This document shows, one piece after another, positions 30,590 through 37,144 of a stretch of 64,000 bases of DNA. The translations under genes and the position numbers were made by a program. Position 1 is the stretch's first letter, and every line of letters starts with the position of its first letter. The stretch is from Candidatus Bipolaricaulis anaerobius (GTDB lineage: Bacteria > Bipolaricaulota > Bipolaricaulia > Bipolaricaulales > Bipolaricaulaceae), in contig NZ_LS483254.1 of NCBI RefSeq assembly GCF_900465355.1, positions 558,001 to 622,000 of the forward strand. The letters are read 5' to 3'. The notes below the pieces were generated by a model. That model was not told where the DNA came from. It did not search any database and saw only the letters and a list, made by a program, of their open reading frames with translations.

Positions 30590-30604
30590 AGCGGGGGGAT
30601 GCGG

Positions 30605-31117
30605 ATGGAGGAGCTCGTCCTCGGGATGCTGAAGCTGGGCCCGGCCCACGGCTACGAGCTGCGGAGCCGGGTCCGCGAGGAGCTCGGGCCGGCGTGGCGT
30701 GTGGCCTCGAGCCAGCTCTACACCTGGCTCCGGCGGCTGGAGGAGGGTGGGTACGTTTCGAGCGCGCTTGCGGAACTGCCGGGAGGACCCCCGCGCCGGG
30801 TGTACTCCCTCACCCCGGCCGGGGAAGAGCGGTTCTGGCAGTGGCTCCTCAAAGGTTCGACCTCCCCCCGGCGGGCGCGCGGGTCGTACCTCATCCGGCT
30901 CTACTTCCTGATCCGGTTCGCCCCCCACCACCTCGCCACGTACGTGGCCGAGGAGCGGGCGGTCCTCGACAAGCGCCGGGCGCGGCTCCTCGCGCGGGAC
31001 ACGGGTGAAGACCCGTTTCGGGAGGCAGTGCGGCGGCTGCGGCTCTCTCAGGTGGAGGGCGGCCTGAGGTGGCTCGATGGCCTGGCGGATCTGGTTGCAG
31101 CAAAGGAGGAACCATGA
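30605..31117 (+). CDS. PadR-family transcriptional regulator
   Basis: The 170-residue repressor begins with the PadR winged helix (MEELVLGMLKLGPAHGYELRSRVREELG, SSQLYTWLRRLEEGGYV, RRVYSLTPAGEERF at the wing). A C-terminal helical domain (~85-170) would give dimerisation. ATG 30605 has GGGGGG at proper distance; ATG 30599 is the alternative. The operator palindrome overlaps its own promoter, and the stop overlaps the first transporter gene, so it probably controls uptake of the ligand it senses. Whether it senses a metal or an organic ligand cannot be seen. Confidence 0.92.
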   Translation: MEELVLGMLKLGPAHGYELRSRVREELGPAWRVASSQLYTWLRRLEEGGYVSSALAELPGGPPRRVYSLTPAGEERFWQWLLKGSTSPRRARGSYLIRLYFLIRFAPHHLATYVAEERAVLDKRRARLLARDTGEDPFREAVRRLRLSQVEGGLRWLDGLADLVAAKEEP

Positions 31118-32109
31118 AGGCATTCGGAGTCGGGTTCATGATCGTCGTCCTCGCGGTCGGGGGATGGGCACAGGGCCTCACCGTGGTGGACCAGGCCGGG
31201 CGTACGGTGGAGATCCCCGCCGTGCCCACGCGGGTGGCGAGCGCGTTCGCTGTGGCCACCGCGTACGTGTACTCGCTCGGAGCGGGCGACCTCGTCGTGG
31301 GGGCCCGCTACCTTGGGATCCCGGATTCCCCCATCGCCCGCGGGGTGATGGCGCGGATCGACCCGCAGTGGGAGGGGAAGGGGTTCCCCGGGGATGTCAC
31401 GGTGGAGACGATCGTGGCCTTGAAGGCGGACCTCGTCGTGGCGGGGGTGAGGCACCAGAAGCTCGCGGAGCTCCTCGGGGACGTGGGGATCCCGACCGTC
31501 CTCTACGCCGCGGAGACGTTCGATGCCGTGCGCGCGGCAACCGAGCTCACGGGGAAGATCCTCGGACGCGAAGAGGCCGCGGCGCGGCTCGTCGCCCTGT
31601 TCGATGAGGTGGTGGCCGAGGTGGCAAGCGCCGTCCCGGCCGACGAGGGGGGTCCGCGCGTCCTGTTCGTGGGCACCGAGCCCCTCCGCGTGGCGGCGGC
31701 GGGGATGTACCAGGCGCAGCAGATCGCCCTCGCCGGTGGCCGCACGGCGGCGGAGGACCTCGCGGGGACCTCGTGGCAGAACGTGAGCCCGGAGCAGTTC
31801 CTCCTCTGGAACCCCGATGTGATCGTCATCGCCTCGTACGGGACTGCTGTCCCCGCGGACTACCTCGGGGATCCCGTGTTCCAGGGGATCACCGCTGTCC
31901 AGACGGGTCGGGTGTACAAGATGCCCCAGCTCCTCTTCGCGTGGGACAACCCGATCCCGGAGTCGGTCCTCGGGATCGTGTGGCTCGCTGAGCTGCTGCA
32001 CCCGGGGACCCTTCCCCTGACGCTGGGCGAGTACGCCGCCCGTCTGTACCGCGACTTCTATGGGGTCGAGCTCACCGAAGAGGAGCTAGCGAGTATCATC
32101 GGGCCGTGA
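31114..32109 (+). CDS. ABC importer substrate-binding protein 1 (Fe-siderophore/cobalamin class)
   Basis: The 331-residue class III periplasmic binding protein has a signal peptide (MKAFGVGFMIVVLAVGGWAQG) without a lipobox Cys, so it is probably free in a periplasm. Typical features: TVVDQAGRTVEIPAVPTRV at the mature start, TVETIVALKADLVV, and LLWNPDVIVI in the second lobe, joined by a helix. The ligand cannot be assigned. The start overlaps padR (ATGA). Confidence 0.9.
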   Translation: MKAFGVGFMIVVLAVGGWAQGLTVVDQAGRTVEIPAVPTRVASAFAVATAYVYSLGAGDLVVGARYLGIPDSPIARGVMARIDPQWEGKGFPGDVTVETIVALKADLVVAGVRHQKLAELLGDVGIPTVLYAAETFDAVRAATELTGKILGREEAAARLVALFDEVVAEVASAVPADEGGPRVLFVGTEPLRVAAAGMYQAQQIALAGGRTAAEDLAGTSWQNVSPEQFLLWNPDVIVIASYGTAVPADYLGDPVFQGITAVQTGRVYKMPQLLFAWDNPIPESVLGIVWLAELLHPGTLPLTLGEYAARLYRDFYGVELTEEELASIIGP

Positions 32110-33113
32110 TCGCGTCGCTGATCCTGTTCCTGGGCCTCCTCTCGTTCCCTGCGGGAGGGCAGGGCATCGTGGTGGACCAAGCCGGCCGGGAGGTGGCCCT
32201 CCCCCCGGCGGTGGAACGGGTGGTGTGCCTCCACAGCGGGACGAGCTGGATCGTGTATGCGCTGGGTGGGGGGGAGGCCTTGGTGGGGGCGTACTACGCG
32301 AGCCTCCCCTCCCTCCCCCTCGCCCAGGAGGCGCTCGCCGGGCTCGACCCGGGTTACCGAGGGAAGGAGCTCCCTGTGCAGCCGACCGTGGAGGCGATCG
32401 TCGCCCTCCAGCCGGATGTCGTCCTCGCTAGCTCCGTCGTCCACGGGACGGGATTGGCGCCGCTTCTCGAGGAAGTGGGGATCCCCACCGTGCTCTACTA
32501 CCCGGAGACCCTGGGCGGGATCGAGGAGGCGATCCTCCTCACGGGGAGGGTCCTCGGCCGCATGGAGCGGGCCGAGGAGCTCGCCGCGCGGTTCAGGGAG
32601 ATCAGCGCCCGGGTCACGGCGGGGACCGCGGCGCGGGAGCCCCGCCCCCGCGTGTACTTCGCCGCCTACTACACCGTCCTGAACGTGTACGCCGGGGATG
32701 TGATCCAGAACGTCCTCATCGAGCTCGCGGGCGGGATTCCAGTTGGGCGCGCCCTTTCCCCCCGGCCGGGGCTCTTCTGGCAGCGGGTGGATGCGGAGAG
32801 GCTCCTTTTGTGGGACCCGGAGGTGGTCCTCGTCCCCGTCTACAACCAGGCCGACCTCGTGGCCCTCGCGTCCGACCCGATCTGGCAGGGGGTGACCGCG
32901 GTCCGGACGGGTCGGGTGTACCGGTTCCCCGAGTTCTTCGCGTCGTGGGACATCCCGGGGCCGGAGGTCGTCCTGGGGCTCCTATGGCTCGCGGAGACCC
33001 TTCACCCCGGGTCCACCGGGCTCGACCTGGTGACGGAGGTGATCCGGTTCTACGGGGACTTCTACGGGTGCCATCTCACCCCGGATGCGGTAGCGGCCCT
33101 GTTCGGCCGATGA
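32106..33113 (+). CDS. ABC importer substrate-binding protein 2
   Basis: The 335-residue paralogue of the preceding gene has a signal peptide (IASLILFLGLLSFPAGGQG), VVDQAGREVALPPAVERVV, TVEAIVALQPDVVL, LLWDPEVVLV and a similar C-terminus (FYGDFYGCHLTPDAVAALFG). The repeated VDQAGR start and common ending show a tandem duplication followed by divergence, so the importer may accept two related ligands. It starts at GTG overlapping the previous stop (GTGA). Confidence 0.9.
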   Translation: MIASLILFLGLLSFPAGGQGIVVDQAGREVALPPAVERVVCLHSGTSWIVYALGGGEALVGAYYASLPSLPLAQEALAGLDPGYRGKELPVQPTVEAIVALQPDVVLASSVVHGTGLAPLLEEVGIPTVLYYPETLGGIEEAILLTGRVLGRMERAEELAARFREISARVTAGTAAREPRPRVYFAAYYTVLNVYAGDVIQNVLIELAGGIPVGRALSPRPGLFWQRVDAERLLLWDPEVVLVPVYNQADLVALASDPIWQGVTAVRTGRVYRFPEFFASWDIPGPEVVLGLLWLAETLHPGSTGLDLVTEVIRFYGDFYGCHLTPDAVAALFGR

Positions 33114-34240
33114 AGCGGTCTGTGCTGGTCGGGGGGCTTCTCCTCCTCCCCCTGCCGGTGATGTTCTTCGCCCTCATGGTCGGGCGGTATCCGATCGCGC
33201 CGGGGGAGGTATGGGCTGTGATCGGGCACGCCCTACTGGAGGGGGTGGCCCACGTTGGGGAGTGGGTCGTGGTTGGCCTCATCCGGGTTCCGGAGATCGT
33301 CAACCCGGCCTGGGCGTTCCCGGACCTTGTTGAGGAGGTGAGCCGGTTCTTTGTGGTGCCCCCCCTGGCGGGGGTGGAGCCGGTGGTCCAGGCGCTTGTC
33401 CTGCGGATCCGCCTCCCGCGGATCGGGGCCGCGGCGTTGGTGGGGGCGAACCTCGCCGTGGCGGGGGCGGTGTACCAGGGCGTGTTCCGCAACCCCCTGG
33501 TCGAGGGGCGGCTGCTGGGGGTGAGCTCGGGGGCGGGGCTGGGGGCAGCGCTGGCGTTCCTCCTCTTCCCCCAGCCGGCGGTGGTCCAGGCGTTCGCCTT
33601 CGCGGGGGGGGCGTTGGGGGTGGCCCTCACCGCGCTCCTCGGGTGGACGTTCGGAGGGGGGGTCCTCGTCCTCGTCATCGCGGGGGTGCTCGTGGATTCG
33701 TTCCTGTCCGCGGTCCTCGGGCTCGTGAAGTACGCGGCCGACCCGCTCGGGACCCTCCCCGCGATCACGTACTGGCTCCTCGGGGGGCTGAGCGGGGTCC
33801 GCGTCCCCGACCTCCTCCCCCTCGGCATCGCCTCCGGGATCGGCCTCTCCTTCTTCCTCCTCGCCCGATGGCGCCTCAACCTCCTCACCCTCGCCGACCA
33901 GGAGGCGGAGGCGCTCGGGGTGAGGGTCCGCCCGACGCGGTTCCTCGTGGTGGGGATGGGGACCCTCCTCGTCGCGTCCGCGGTCTCCGTAAGCGGGACC
34001 GTGAGCTGGGTTGGGCTGCTCGTGCCCCATGCCGCCCGGGCGGTGGTGGGGCCGGACTACGCGAAGCTCCTCCCCGCCGCGGCCGGGTTGGGGGCGGCCC
34101 TCGTGGTGGCCCTCGACACGCTCGCCCGCACCCTCCTCACCGCGGAGATCCCGTTGGGGATCCTCACCGGCCTCCTCGGGGCCCCGCTGTTCCTCGTCCT
34201 CTTCCTCAGGTTCCTCCGGGAGCGGGGGGGGTGGCGGTGA
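33110..34240 (+). CDS. FecCD-family ABC permease
   Basis: The 376-residue polytopic permease shows RIRLPRIGAAALVGANLAVAGAVYQGVFRNPLVEGRLLGVSSGAGLGA and the C-terminal SGTVSWVGLLVPHAARAVVGPDYAKLLPAAAG, both diagnostic for FecCD/BtuC permeases. Between the first membrane segment and RIRLPR there is an unusually long stretch (~35-95, including VPEIVNPAWAFPDLVEEVSRFFVVPPLAG), which family members largely lack. It should lie outside and could contact the two binding proteins. Confidence 0.93.
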   Translation: MKRSVLVGGLLLLPLPVMFFALMVGRYPIAPGEVWAVIGHALLEGVAHVGEWVVVGLIRVPEIVNPAWAFPDLVEEVSRFFVVPPLAGVEPVVQALVLRIRLPRIGAAALVGANLAVAGAVYQGVFRNPLVEGRLLGVSSGAGLGAALAFLLFPQPAVVQAFAFAGGALGVALTALLGWTFGGGVLVLVIAGVLVDSFLSAVLGLVKYAADPLGTLPAITYWLLGGLSGVRVPDLLPLGIASGIGLSFFLLARWRLNLLTLADQEAEALGVRVRPTRFLVVGMGTLLVASAVSVSGTVSWVGLLVPHAARAVVGPDYAKLLPAAAGLGAALVVALDTLARTLLTAEIPLGILTGLLGAPLFLVLFLRFLRERGGWR

Positions 34241-35040
34241 GGCTCCGGGCGGGAGGGCTCGTCTACGCCTACATCCCGGGCCGCCCGGTCCTGCGCGGGA
34301 TCACGCTCGAACTTCGCTCCGGGGAGACGGCGTTCCTCCTCGGCCCGAACGGGAGCGGGAAGACGACGTTCCTCGACTGCATCGGCGGCCTGCGGCCCCC
34401 CGCGGAGGGGGAGGTCCTCCTCGACGATCGGCCGCTCGGGTCGTTCTCCGCCCGGGAGCGGGCGCAGCAGGTCGGGTACGTGCCCCAGTTCCACGAGCCC
34501 CCGTTCAACTTCACGGCGTGGGAGGTGGTCCTCATGGGCCGCGCCCCCTACGTGCGTTGGCTCAGCCAGCCCAAGGAGCGGGACCGCCGCGCCGCCGATG
34601 AAGCGCTGGCCGCCCTCAACCTGGCAGGGTTCCGGGATCGCCCCTACTACACCCTGAGCGGAGGGGAGCGGAGGCTCGTCCTCGTGGCGCGGGGGCTCGC
34701 TCAGGGGGCGGCGTTCCTCCTCCTCGACGAGCCGGATGCTCACCTCGACCCGGCGAACCAGCACCGGGTCCTCCTCGCGGTGCAGGAGGTGGTGGGGGAG
34801 GGCCTCGGCGCGGCGATCACCTCCCACAGCCCGAACAACGCCCTCCTCTACGCGGACCGGGTGGCCCTCTTCTCCACCGGGGAAGTCCTCGCCCAGGGAG
34901 CGCCGGGCGAGGTCGTCACGCCTCCCCTCCTCGAACGGGCCTACGGGATCCCGTTCGTCTCCGTGGGCGATGGCCCCGGTCCGCGGGCCGTCCTCCCCTC
35001 CCTGGAGGATCAGCGCCCCACGAGGTCGAGGAACCCCTGA
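34237..35040 (+). CDS. FecE-type ABC ATPase
   Basis: The 267-residue ATP-binding subunit has Walker A GPNGSGKTT (36-44), Q-loop YVPQFHEPPFNFTAWEVVLMGR, signature LSGGERRLV, Walker B FLLLDEPDAHLDP and H-loop His in ITSHSPNNAL. It powers the importer. It begins at a GTGA overlap with the permease. Its last 31 nt overlap the convergent unknown gene. The in-frame region upstream of GTG 34237 is a shadow of the permease gene. Confidence 0.95.
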   Translation: MRLRAGGLVYAYIPGRPVLRGITLELRSGETAFLLGPNGSGKTTFLDCIGGLRPPAEGEVLLDDRPLGSFSARERAQQVGYVPQFHEPPFNFTAWEVVLMGRAPYVRWLSQPKERDRRAADEALAALNLAGFRDRPYYTLSGGERRLVLVARGLAQGAAFLLLDEPDAHLDPANQHRVLLAVQEVVGEGLGAAITSHSPNNALLYADRVALFSTGEVLAQGAPGEVVTPPLLERAYGIPFVSVGDGPGPRAVLPSLEDQRPTRSRNP

Positions 35041-36335
35041 ACGGGAAGGTGGAGAGGGCGAGCGAGCTCCCATTCCTTTTCCCGCCGGGCAAGCTCCGCC
35101 GCCGCGGCGAACGGGGCATAGGGATCGTCCGGCCAGTACCGCTCGTCCACGAGGACCGTCGTCCCCTCTCCCAGAACCTCCCTCCACCGGGCGAGCGGGA
35201 CCCAGTCCGGAGGACGGGCAAACGTGGGGTGGAGGAGGAGGAGCTTTTCCGCCACGGGGGCCGCGGCGAGGAACCGTTGAGCGAAGAGGAGGGCGTCCTC
35301 CGTCCCGAACGGGAGATGGAGGGGAGGGATGCCGGTCCGTTTGCAGAACCGGCTATCGAGGGAAGTGAAGCAGTCGAGGATCACCACATCGTCTCGCCCT
35401 CCCGCGGCGCGGTAGGCCCGGTAGGCGAGCTCGCTATAGTCCGTTGGGTGGGCCGCCGGGACCTCGACGAGCGTGATCCCCGCGCCGGCCGCGAACGCTT
35501 GCAGATCCTGAGCGAACGCGTTCGGGCACCCCCACTCCGACTCCCGCCGGGCGATCGTCGGCCCCGGCGAGGGGTAGTGGGCGAGGTAGTCCTCCGGCCC
35601 GATCCCGCCCAGGCCTCCGATCTGGAGCCAGATCCCGTCCCCGAGCTCCGCTTGGGGCCAGGGGTAGGTGCCCTCGGCGAGGATGAGCGTCCCCCCCGGG
35701 GCGAGGTGCTCGCCGATGAACTCCCGGTACGGCCGGGGCAGGGAGAGGAGCCGGACCCGGATGAGGCAGGCATGGGCGACGAGGTCTCGGTCGTGGATCG
35801 GGTCGTAGTGAACGATGAGCTCATACCGGCCGGGCGCGGCGAGCTCCCGCGCGGCGCGGGCGGTGGCGGCGTACGCCGCGAGGTCATCCGGCTGCACCTC
35901 GTGGCGGATCCCGATCAGGGCGCACACGGGGAGGAACGGGGCGTCGAGGAGGGCTGCGAGGTGTGCCACCCCCCCTCCTGGCGAGCCGAGGACGATCGCC
36001 GGGTACTCCCGGTTGGGGTAGCGCCGGACGTAGTCAGAGAAGAGCGAGTCGGGGTCGAATCCGGCGAGGGCCGTTGCCGGGTACCCCACGGAGAAGCGCA
36101 TCCCCCACCCGATCACGGCCTCCCGCACCGCCGGGGGGAGATGGCGCAGCACGGCCATCACCGGGCGGGACGCCTCCGGGTAGGGGTCCCGCAGCCCGCG
36201 CCCCGTCCCGCCGAGGGCCCGCGCCACCTCCCCCACCGCCCGCGCCGCGGAATCGAACGCGAGGGGGACCACCGGGGGTGGTTGGTTCACCGCGAGCACT
36301 GCCCCGATGAGGGCCACGAGGAGCACCCACGTCAT
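35010..36335 (-). CDS. exported protein of unknown function, partner of the TatT-like gene
   Basis: This 441-residue protein was not recognised. The start at 36335 gives a signal peptide or anchor (MTWVLLVALIGAVLAVNQ). Features include LGSPGGGVAHLAALL, a likely nucleophile or phosphate-binding turn, HYDPIHDRDLVAHACL, EFIGEHLAPGGTLILAEGTYPWPQ, a single EWGCPNAFAQDL Cys and ILDCFTSLDSRFCKRTG. The mix of alternating strands and helices suggests a globular alpha/beta domain. Its ATG overlaps the stop of the TatT-like gene (ATGA), so the two probably act together in the envelope. Confidence 0.75.
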   Translation of the reverse strand: MTWVLLVALIGAVLAVNQPPPVVPLAFDSAARAVGEVARALGGTGRGLRDPYPEASRPVMAVLRHLPPAVREAVIGWGMRFSVGYPATALAGFDPDSLFSDYVRRYPNREYPAIVLGSPGGGVAHLAALLDAPFLPVCALIGIRHEVQPDDLAAYAATARAARELAAPGRYELIVHYDPIHDRDLVAHACLIRVRLLSLPRPYREFIGEHLAPGGTLILAEGTYPWPQAELGDGIWLQIGGLGGIGPEDYLAHYPSPGPTIARRESEWGCPNAFAQDLQAFAAGAGITLVEVPAAHPTDYSELAYRAYRAAGGRDDVVILDCFTSLDSRFCKRTGIPPLHLPFGTEDALLFAQRFLAAAPVAEKLLLLHPTFARPPDWVPLARWREVLGEGTTVLVDERYWPDDPYAPFAAAAELARREKEWELARPLHLPVQGFLDLVGR

Positions 36336-37144
36336 CGGAAGTGCCGATCCACCTCGTGCAGGTACTCCGCCGCCTTCACCTTGGCGTGGCGGTTCCAGAA
36401 CGGCCAGTCCCCGATCGGGGCTTCCAGCACGTAGTGGAGGAGGTCCTCGAACAGGGCCCGGTCCTTGGCCCGTCGGGCGTACTCCCAGGCGTAGGCGATG
36501 TGGTTCTCGAGGTACGTCGGATCGAGGGTCAGTGCCCACTCGAAGTAGGTCTTCGCATCGGCGAGCTTGACCCCGAACAGGATCCCGTAGTCGGAGAGGT
36601 TGGCGAGGAGCGCGCCGTACGCCTGCGGTCCCGATCCTCCCCAGTACCCCGGGTCGAGCTCGATCACCCGCTCGTACATCGTACGGATCTTGCCGAGGCT
36701 CGCGAACGCCGCGAACGGGTTCATCCGTCCCAGGAGGAGGCCCCAGCTGTGCCCCGTCCACAGGATCGCGGCCGGGTCCGTGGTACGGGCGAGGAGGGCG
36801 CGGAGCTTCTCATCGGAGAGGCTGAGCCCTTCGTCGAGGCCCGAGAGACCGAGGGAGCGGAACCCGTAGTCGGCCGCGGTGCGGAGGATCGCTTCCTTTT
36901 CCTCCTCCGGTGCAAACACGGCCCGCTCGTACCAAACTTGGGCGAGCTGCGCGAGAACGGCCGCGTTCCCCGGTTCCGCGGCGAGGAGGGCCTCGTAGAC
37001 CCCGATCAGCCGTTCCATGTTCGCAAGCTCGTACCGCATCGGGAACAGGGCCTCCGCCTCCGCCGTGAGGTCGGCCACCGACTGCGCCCATCCGCTCCCC
37101 GCCATCGCCGCGATGGCTAGTATCGATAGGACTCTCCGTATCAT
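36332..37144 (-). CDS. TatT-like (TRAP transporter T-component) protein
   Basis: The 270-residue exported helical protein has a signal peptide (MIRRVLSILAIAAMAGSGWAQ) and cryptic TPR-like repeats (MERLIGVYEALLAAEPGNAAVLAQLAQVWYE, IRTMYERVIELDPGYW, AKTYFEWALTLDPTYLENHIAYAWEYA). This is the fold and pattern of Treponema Tp0956 (TatT), a trimeric periplasmic component tied to a TRAP transporter. No TRAP permease or DctP-type receptor is in the window. A TACGCT lies 8 nt before the ATG. It is divergent from the rmlA-like gene. Confidence 0.82.
   Translation of the reverse strand: MIRRVLSILAIAAMAGSGWAQSVADLTAEAEALFPMRYELANMERLIGVYEALLAAEPGNAAVLAQLAQVWYERAVFAPEEEKEAILRTAADYGFRSLGLSGLDEGLSLSDEKLRALLARTTDPAAILWTGHSWGLLLGRMNPFAAFASLGKIRTMYERVIELDPGYWGGSGPQAYGALLANLSDYGILFGVKLADAKTYFEWALTLDPTYLENHIAYAWEYARRAKDRALFEDLLHYVLEAPIGDWPFWNRHAKVKAAEYLHEVDRHFR

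Follow-up and report, generated by a model that had tools for sequence, protein, structure and literature searches.

What brings a TatT-type protein together with an exported protein of no named family when no TRAP permease lies nearby? This question is raised by a minus-strand gene pair at 35010-37144 of the window, by which we mean the whole 64,000-nucleotide stretch of Candidatus Bipolaricaulis anaerobius DNA analysed here. The window is part of one contig of 1,324,338 bases, and the completeness of the genome is estimated at 96.89%. An earlier note had described the two genes as coupled through an ATGA overlap. Both genes and the overlap are indeed present: positions 36335-36332 of the minus strand read ATGA and are common to the stop of TatT and the start of its neighbor, which we call P1. 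The pair and the genes that face it are the following.

30599..31117, plus strand: PadR-type regulator (PF03551), head of an importer cassette
31114..32109, plus strand: first periplasmic binding protein (PF01497), best PDB match 4hn9
32106..33113, plus strand: second periplasmic binding protein (PF01497)
33110..34240, plus strand: FecCD-type permease (PF01032), best PDB match HI1471 (2nq2)
34231..35040, plus strand: ABC ATPase (PF00005) of the importer that converges on the pair; it overlaps P1 by 31 nt, 3' end to 3' end
35010..36335, minus strand: P1 (P0001), 441 aa, exported protein whose family has no name, its start overlapping the TatT stop by 4 nt
36332..37144, minus strand: TatT-type exported protein P0002, 270 aa (PF16811), with a signal-peptide-like N-terminus that lacks a cysteine

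The gene calls give the same 4-nt overlap in all seven genomes of the window's family (f1) in which TatT and P1 are adjacent, the value for G038 being that of the gene call (the match-based figure is +8). Because the overlap recurs in 7/7 adjacent same-family cases, the pairing of TatT with P1 exceeds chance. A screen of the full window against Rfam with gathering cut-offs returned two tRNAs only, and we therefore rejected an RNA regulator of the importer.

P0002 matches PF16811 (TAtT) over residues 49-269 with 68.7 bits against a cut-off of 26.5 in the Pfam search. By eye its N-terminus is signal-like. The signal region of P0002 has no cysteine, and by eye none of the TatT signal regions of the listed relatives shows a convincing lipobox. 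The genome of the window encodes three PF16811 proteins. The two further TatT-type genes (L068:7888-8778 and L069:8712-9554) have no TRAP genes nearby; one lies beside HypC/D/E-like genes, as judged by eye, and the other beside patatin and phosphoglycerate mutase genes.

The earlier note had seen no DctQM near the pair. We confirmed this and found that the absence extends to the genome: at E<=0.001 the whole single contig has 0 matches to DctM and 0 to DctP (a search that does not take in the TAXI receptor family), while the positive controls gave matches in 7 (DctM) and 6 (DctP) of 14 genomes. A TRAP operon elsewhere in the genome, which the note had named as the finding that would speak against its proposal, was not found, because the genome contains neither DctM nor DctP matches. 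That TatT here serves a TRAP transporter encoded at a distance, a reading drawn only from the family name and the Treponema precedent, is thus very improbable, and we rejected it unless the approximately 3% of the genome that is missing according to the completeness estimate hides such an operon.

The same question can be asked of the phylum. TatT-type matches are found in 84 of 100 Bipolaricaulota genomes. For DctM, 39 of the 100 genomes have matches at E<=0.001 and 27 above cut-off; the E values fall at or below 1e-70 in 12 genomes and are followed by a tail from 5.9e-18 upward consisting mostly of partial matches. We counted as TRAP permease only strong DctM matches, defined by a threshold of our own choice (E<=1e-70) placed in the gap between 1.8e-76 and 5.9e-18. 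Strong DctM is present in 6 of the 84 genomes with TatT compared to 6 of the 16 without (Fisher p 0.003, uncorrected for kinship), and in the six genomes that have both, the best DctM match and the TatT matches listed are on different contigs. Hence 78 of 84 TatT-bearing genomes of the phylum have no strong DctM, although TatT-type proteins are named for TRAP transport. From these tallies over 100 genomes it follows that TatT in Bipolaricaulota is largely TRAP-independent.

The second protein of the pair, P1, has a hydrophobic signal-like stretch at its N-terminus, export again being judged by eye. The HMM search proposed in the earlier note was run and gave no significant family match: the best Pfam match has an E value of 0.046, NCBIfam has no match at E<=1, and the best match among PDB sequences is at 0.69. 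The description of P1 as an exported protein of no known family therefore holds for these three libraries. A search of phages with P0001 gave no match. PADLOC likewise had no match for P0001, P0002, P0003 or P0005, and a function in defence was rejected on this ground. We aligned 29 P1 sequences that cover three phyla, with 4 from outside Bipolaricaulota and 25, some of them partial, from within it, and found D178, D182, R183, R193, Y203, W226, Q238, E265, E267 and W268 to be invariant in 29/29. P1 is thus a family with invariant polar residues across three phyla that is named by no library searched. Two side observations concern individual members. The P1 protein of the f7 genome G064 (L063:1-1272) starts with RRAFLRALG, a sequence similar to a twin-arginine signal; none of the remaining signal regions looks like this. 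At L061:8481-9591 (G026) and L060:7663-9179 (G098) P1 is split into several frames, and sister genomes have intact copies.

P1 homologues occur in 29 of the 100 phylum genomes, all of which also have a TatT-type match, and in 2 of the 12 genomes of the window's own genus. A contig scan, with a reach of close relatives only, located five P1 loci, all in Bipolaricaulota or Acetothermia. The gene context of P1, another check proposed earlier, places a TatT-type gene directly upstream on the same strand in 19 of the 29 P1 genomes, if the f9 cases, where a GDPD-family gene intervenes, are counted as directly upstream. These comprise seven f1 genomes (G000, G001, G011, G025, G026, G038, G039), one f7 genome (G064) and eleven f9 genomes (G067, G074, G083, G085, G086, G087, G088, G090, G097, G098, G099). 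Three P1 genomes (G002, G016, G035) are not judgeable, P1 reaching the contig end, and seven have no TatT upstream (G027, G033, G034, G036, G037, G089, G072). In G072 a fragment of P1 adjoins TatT and the remainder is elsewhere; in G027, G033, G034, G036 and G037 P1 stands by the importer and TatT is found elsewhere. The idea put forward in the note that P1 is a partner of TatT is borne out as far as recurrence goes (19/29). That the partnership is obligate or specific to TatT is not supported: sixteen relatives have TatT at the same position without P1, five genomes have P1 by the importer without TatT, and distant homologues accompany alpha/beta-hydrolases.

The most constant neighbor of TatT in family f1 is the importer cassette, on which the earlier note was silent. 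In the window, PadR, two PF01497 binding proteins, the FecCD permease and the ATPase converge on P1, and PF01497, PF01032 and PF00005 are together in one gene run (31114-35040), as in an importer of the FecCD/BtuCD type. NCBIfam models of heme, siderophore and B12 systems match the importer only with scores under their cut-offs. The two tandem PF01497 genes (31114-33113) are found in the window's genus, and the other f1 genera have one. Of the 15 f1 genomes with P1, 14 have the ATPase-permease end converging on P1 (the exception is G016); in 16 f1 genomes that do not have P1 (G004-G008, G010, G012-G014, G017-G023) this end converges directly on TatT. The other 9 f1 genomes, of 40 in all, show neither of these arrangements. 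At L073:1448-2189 (G006) two small genes, by eye a nucleotidyltransferase/HEPN-like pair, separate TatT from the ATPase. The genes that flank TatT on its far side differ between genera.

The position of P1 within this arrangement can be followed in the gene trees. In the P1 tree G038 groups with the g8/g12 P1 proteins (100/100). In the trees of the permease (100/100) and of TatT (99/99), by contrast, G038 pairs with G039. This discordance makes it appear, from the sequences, that P1 was exchanged at a fixed locus.

The presence of TatT beside an ABC importer and not a TRAP transporter suggests a different use for TatT-type proteins. We hypothesize that TatT, independent of TRAP, and the exported P1 translationally coupled to it form an envelope pair that acts on the same ligand and that would pass this ligand to the importer in f1, a reading to which we assign a probability of about 0.4. 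The linkage to the importer supports this role because the importer stays while the genes on the other flank change, and the ligand-handling pair probably serves the ABC importer. Alternatively the link to the importer may be neutral synteny held by overlapping 3' ends, TatT and P1 being a unit with a separate role, which we consider a rather unlikely explanation. The importer is convergent with the pair, the 3' ends of P1 and the ATPase overlap by 31-112 nt in 14/14 loci (31 nt in the window), and linkage can persist without shared function by virtue of such an overlap; the f9 and G064 loci, in addition, carry TatT and P1 without an importer. Neutral synteny does not account as easily for the P1-less relatives, where the junction between TatT and the ATPase ranges from -350 to +1083 nt and the two are yet still neighbors, nor for a linkage that survives replacement of the other flank.

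Homologues from outside the phylum bear on what P1 might do. Searching 72,556 plasmid records at the protein level, we identified four P1 homologues with 27-29% identity (E 6e-13 to 1e-15, 9e-13 at worst); the replicons belong to Caballeronia, Paraburkholderia, Rhizobium and Nonomuraea. All four begin immediately ahead of the FDS motif and lack a signal-like stretch, and the three that were scanned have no Pfam or NCBIfam matches. None of these loci has a TatT neighbor. In 3 of the 4 an upstream alpha/beta-hydrolase gene overlaps the P1 homologue; the Rhizobium locus has a P450 fragment.

It is conceivable, if somewhat doubtful, that P1 is an exported enzyme derived from this signal-less, alpha/beta-hydrolase-linked family, with TatT supplying or removing the substrate and the importer irrelevant. 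The polar residues invariant in 29/29 aligned sequences would suit an enzyme, as would the overlap of the signal-less homologues with a hydrolase gene in three loci, the P450 fragment in the fourth, and the position of P1 after a GDPD-family gene in f9. However, none of the fold or family matches identifies a catalytic site. The GSSNG of the proteobacterial proteins corresponds to GSPxG in Bipolaricaulota, so that no serine nucleophile is conserved in P1.

The f9 GDPD gene is itself an uncertain ally of the enzyme reading since it has lost several motif residues. It lies between TatT and P1 (loci L050-L057, L059, L060, L062 and L067), no importer being present beside TatT and P1 there, and the three proteins scanned match PF03009 with 113-142 bits. 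Passages of PMC4926365 give the GDPD active-site motif as HR...EN...EXD...HD plus metal ligands. In the 12 aligned f9 proteins the R of this motif is replaced by A in 12/12, EN by QN in 12/12 and EXD by GXD in 10/12, with HD retained. The GDPD encoded in the window's own genome, which adjoins a ugpB-like gene (by eye), keeps the R, the E of EN and the E of EXD. Given the motif residues lost, the f9 GDPD may be a pseudo-enzyme, perhaps a binding protein, and such a degenerate GDPD hints at a lipid-like or glycerophosphodiester-type ligand in f9.

Structure prediction of P1, also called for in the earlier note, points to a core of three modules resembling CWB2. A model of residues 95-441 based on six sequences has a pLDDT of 78.6 and a pTM of 0.82, and its best Foldseek match is Cwp6 (5j72) with an E value of 7.8e-4. 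In VIA-align the top seven entries are CWB2 triplets (Z 10.0-10.4, 200-208 residues at 3.4-4.0 A), the alignment spanning model residues 1-334 (P1 95-428), and the next fold has a Z of 6.7. The first full-length model had a mean pLDDT of 65.6; Foldseek alone found no match to it at E<=0.001, and CWB2 entries again came first in a second-look comparison. According to passages of PMC5842191, CWB2 modules are toprim-like and together form a trefoil, and parts of PMC4973711 describe their binding to PSII, a phosphate-containing polymer.

Searches by sequence gave a different picture. PF04122 has no match at E<=1 in 25 P1 members, and none of its 20 matches in the 100 phylum genomes is at a P1 locus. 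The alignment of P1 with one local CWB2 protein by hhalign has a probability of 0.2, PDB profile searches (A2, A4) gave no relevant match, and a search with the local CWB2 protein found none in the plasmids and only itself in the phylum. The internal repeat score of module 1 against module 3 is 15.25 compared to at most 13.9 in 20 column-shuffled controls, a difference too weak to claim. As a separate observation, the protein at L091:700-1893 (G001) reaches 25 bits with PF04122 and is the sole one above the cut-off in the 100 phylum genomes. CWB2 membership by sequence was rejected for want of PF04122, hhalign or PDB profile support. What P1 has in common with CWB2 is a predicted fold and not family membership, because no sequence test backs kinship.

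One could take the model further and regard P1 as an envelope glycan-binding protein of the CWB2 kind that anchors to or recognises an anionic polymer, as the wall-protein modules of C. difficile do. The rank of the CWB2 triplets well ahead of the next fold and the Foldseek match to Cwp6 favor this possibility, which we nevertheless hold to be improbable: PF04122 and hhalign offer no support, the internal repeat signal is weak, other phyla have signal-less homologues, and the invariant polar residues are many for a mere anchor.

We return to the envelope pair acting on a shared ligand. In this mechanism TatT and P1 would share one ligand and work on it beyond the cytoplasmic membrane. By analogy to Treponema TatT and BstC, TatT here would keep or hand on a ligand that is hydrophobic or bulky. 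Treponema TatT, in passages of PMC5812351, forms a trimer, has a hydrophobic pore, meets its binding protein and may carry lipids through the periplasm; BstC, according to parts of PMC10942540, is a member of the T-component superfamily used outside TRAP. P1, in which a set of residues does not vary among three phyla, would bind the same ligand or process it, and in f1 the ligand would then go to the PF01497 binding protein and on to the ABC importer. Support for the pair comes from the PF16811 match, the absence of TRAP, the recurrent linkage of TatT, P1 and importer, and the invariant residues. Sections of PMC6092417 on a closed Acetothermia genome report no lipopolysaccharide genes and an envelope that may be a simple diderm one; this agrees with a periplasmic role and is no proof of it.

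Several observations count against the proposed role. The importer is not in the same operon as TatT and P1, only 2 of 12 own-genus genomes have P1, and five genomes have P1 by the importer with no TatT upstream. The f9 pair has no importer beside it, the outside homologues have neither signal peptides nor TatT neighbors, and by eye none of the TatT signal regions has a convincing lipobox.

A more elaborate form of the proposal, unlikely as it stands, draws on the predicted fold. TatT would have been re-partnered with FecCD-type importers in a relay where TatT and P1, with its CWB2-like core, capture and prepare a large or lipid-like ligand, and a family that elsewhere is signal-less and sits beside alpha/beta-hydrolases would have in P1 its first known exported branch. 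If TatT does feed ABC importers here, the TatT family would be a module for relaying ligands in general rather than a part of TRAP systems.

We compared the locus to known systems; the one paper collection searched yielded no description of P1 or of a link between TatT and an ABC transporter. The Treponema TPAT (TPR-protein-associated TRAP) systems resemble it in having an exported PF16811 protein whose gene adjoins that of a periplasmic partner. They differ in that no TRAP permease or DctP was found here, P1 has no DctP match and the neighbor is an ABC importer. TPAT is defined by TRAP permease and receptor genes alongside, and this genome has 0 DctM and 0 DctP matches. Furthermore the Treponema TatT proteins are lipoproteins, whereas no lipobox was seen here by eye. 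The CWB2 modules (PF04122) of C. difficile Cwp6 and SlpA are similar to P1 95-428 in predicted fold (Z about 10) and differ from P1 in that no sequence similarity is detected, many polar residues are invariant and there are signal-less homologues.

The closest parallel for a use outside TRAP is BstC of methanotroph sterol transport, also a T-component-superfamily protein (PMC10942540, in part; PF16811 and the term TRAP transporter T-component both occur in its text). The BstC model NF045602 matched only the L069 paralogue, weakly (E 0.0014). BstC works with an RND-type protein. Its partners include a PF12974 binding protein, and here they would be P1 and the PF01497/FecCD importer. By Pfam the convergent cassette is an ordinary member of the FecCD/BtuCD-type importers with PF01497; unlike them, it is accompanied by TatT and P1.
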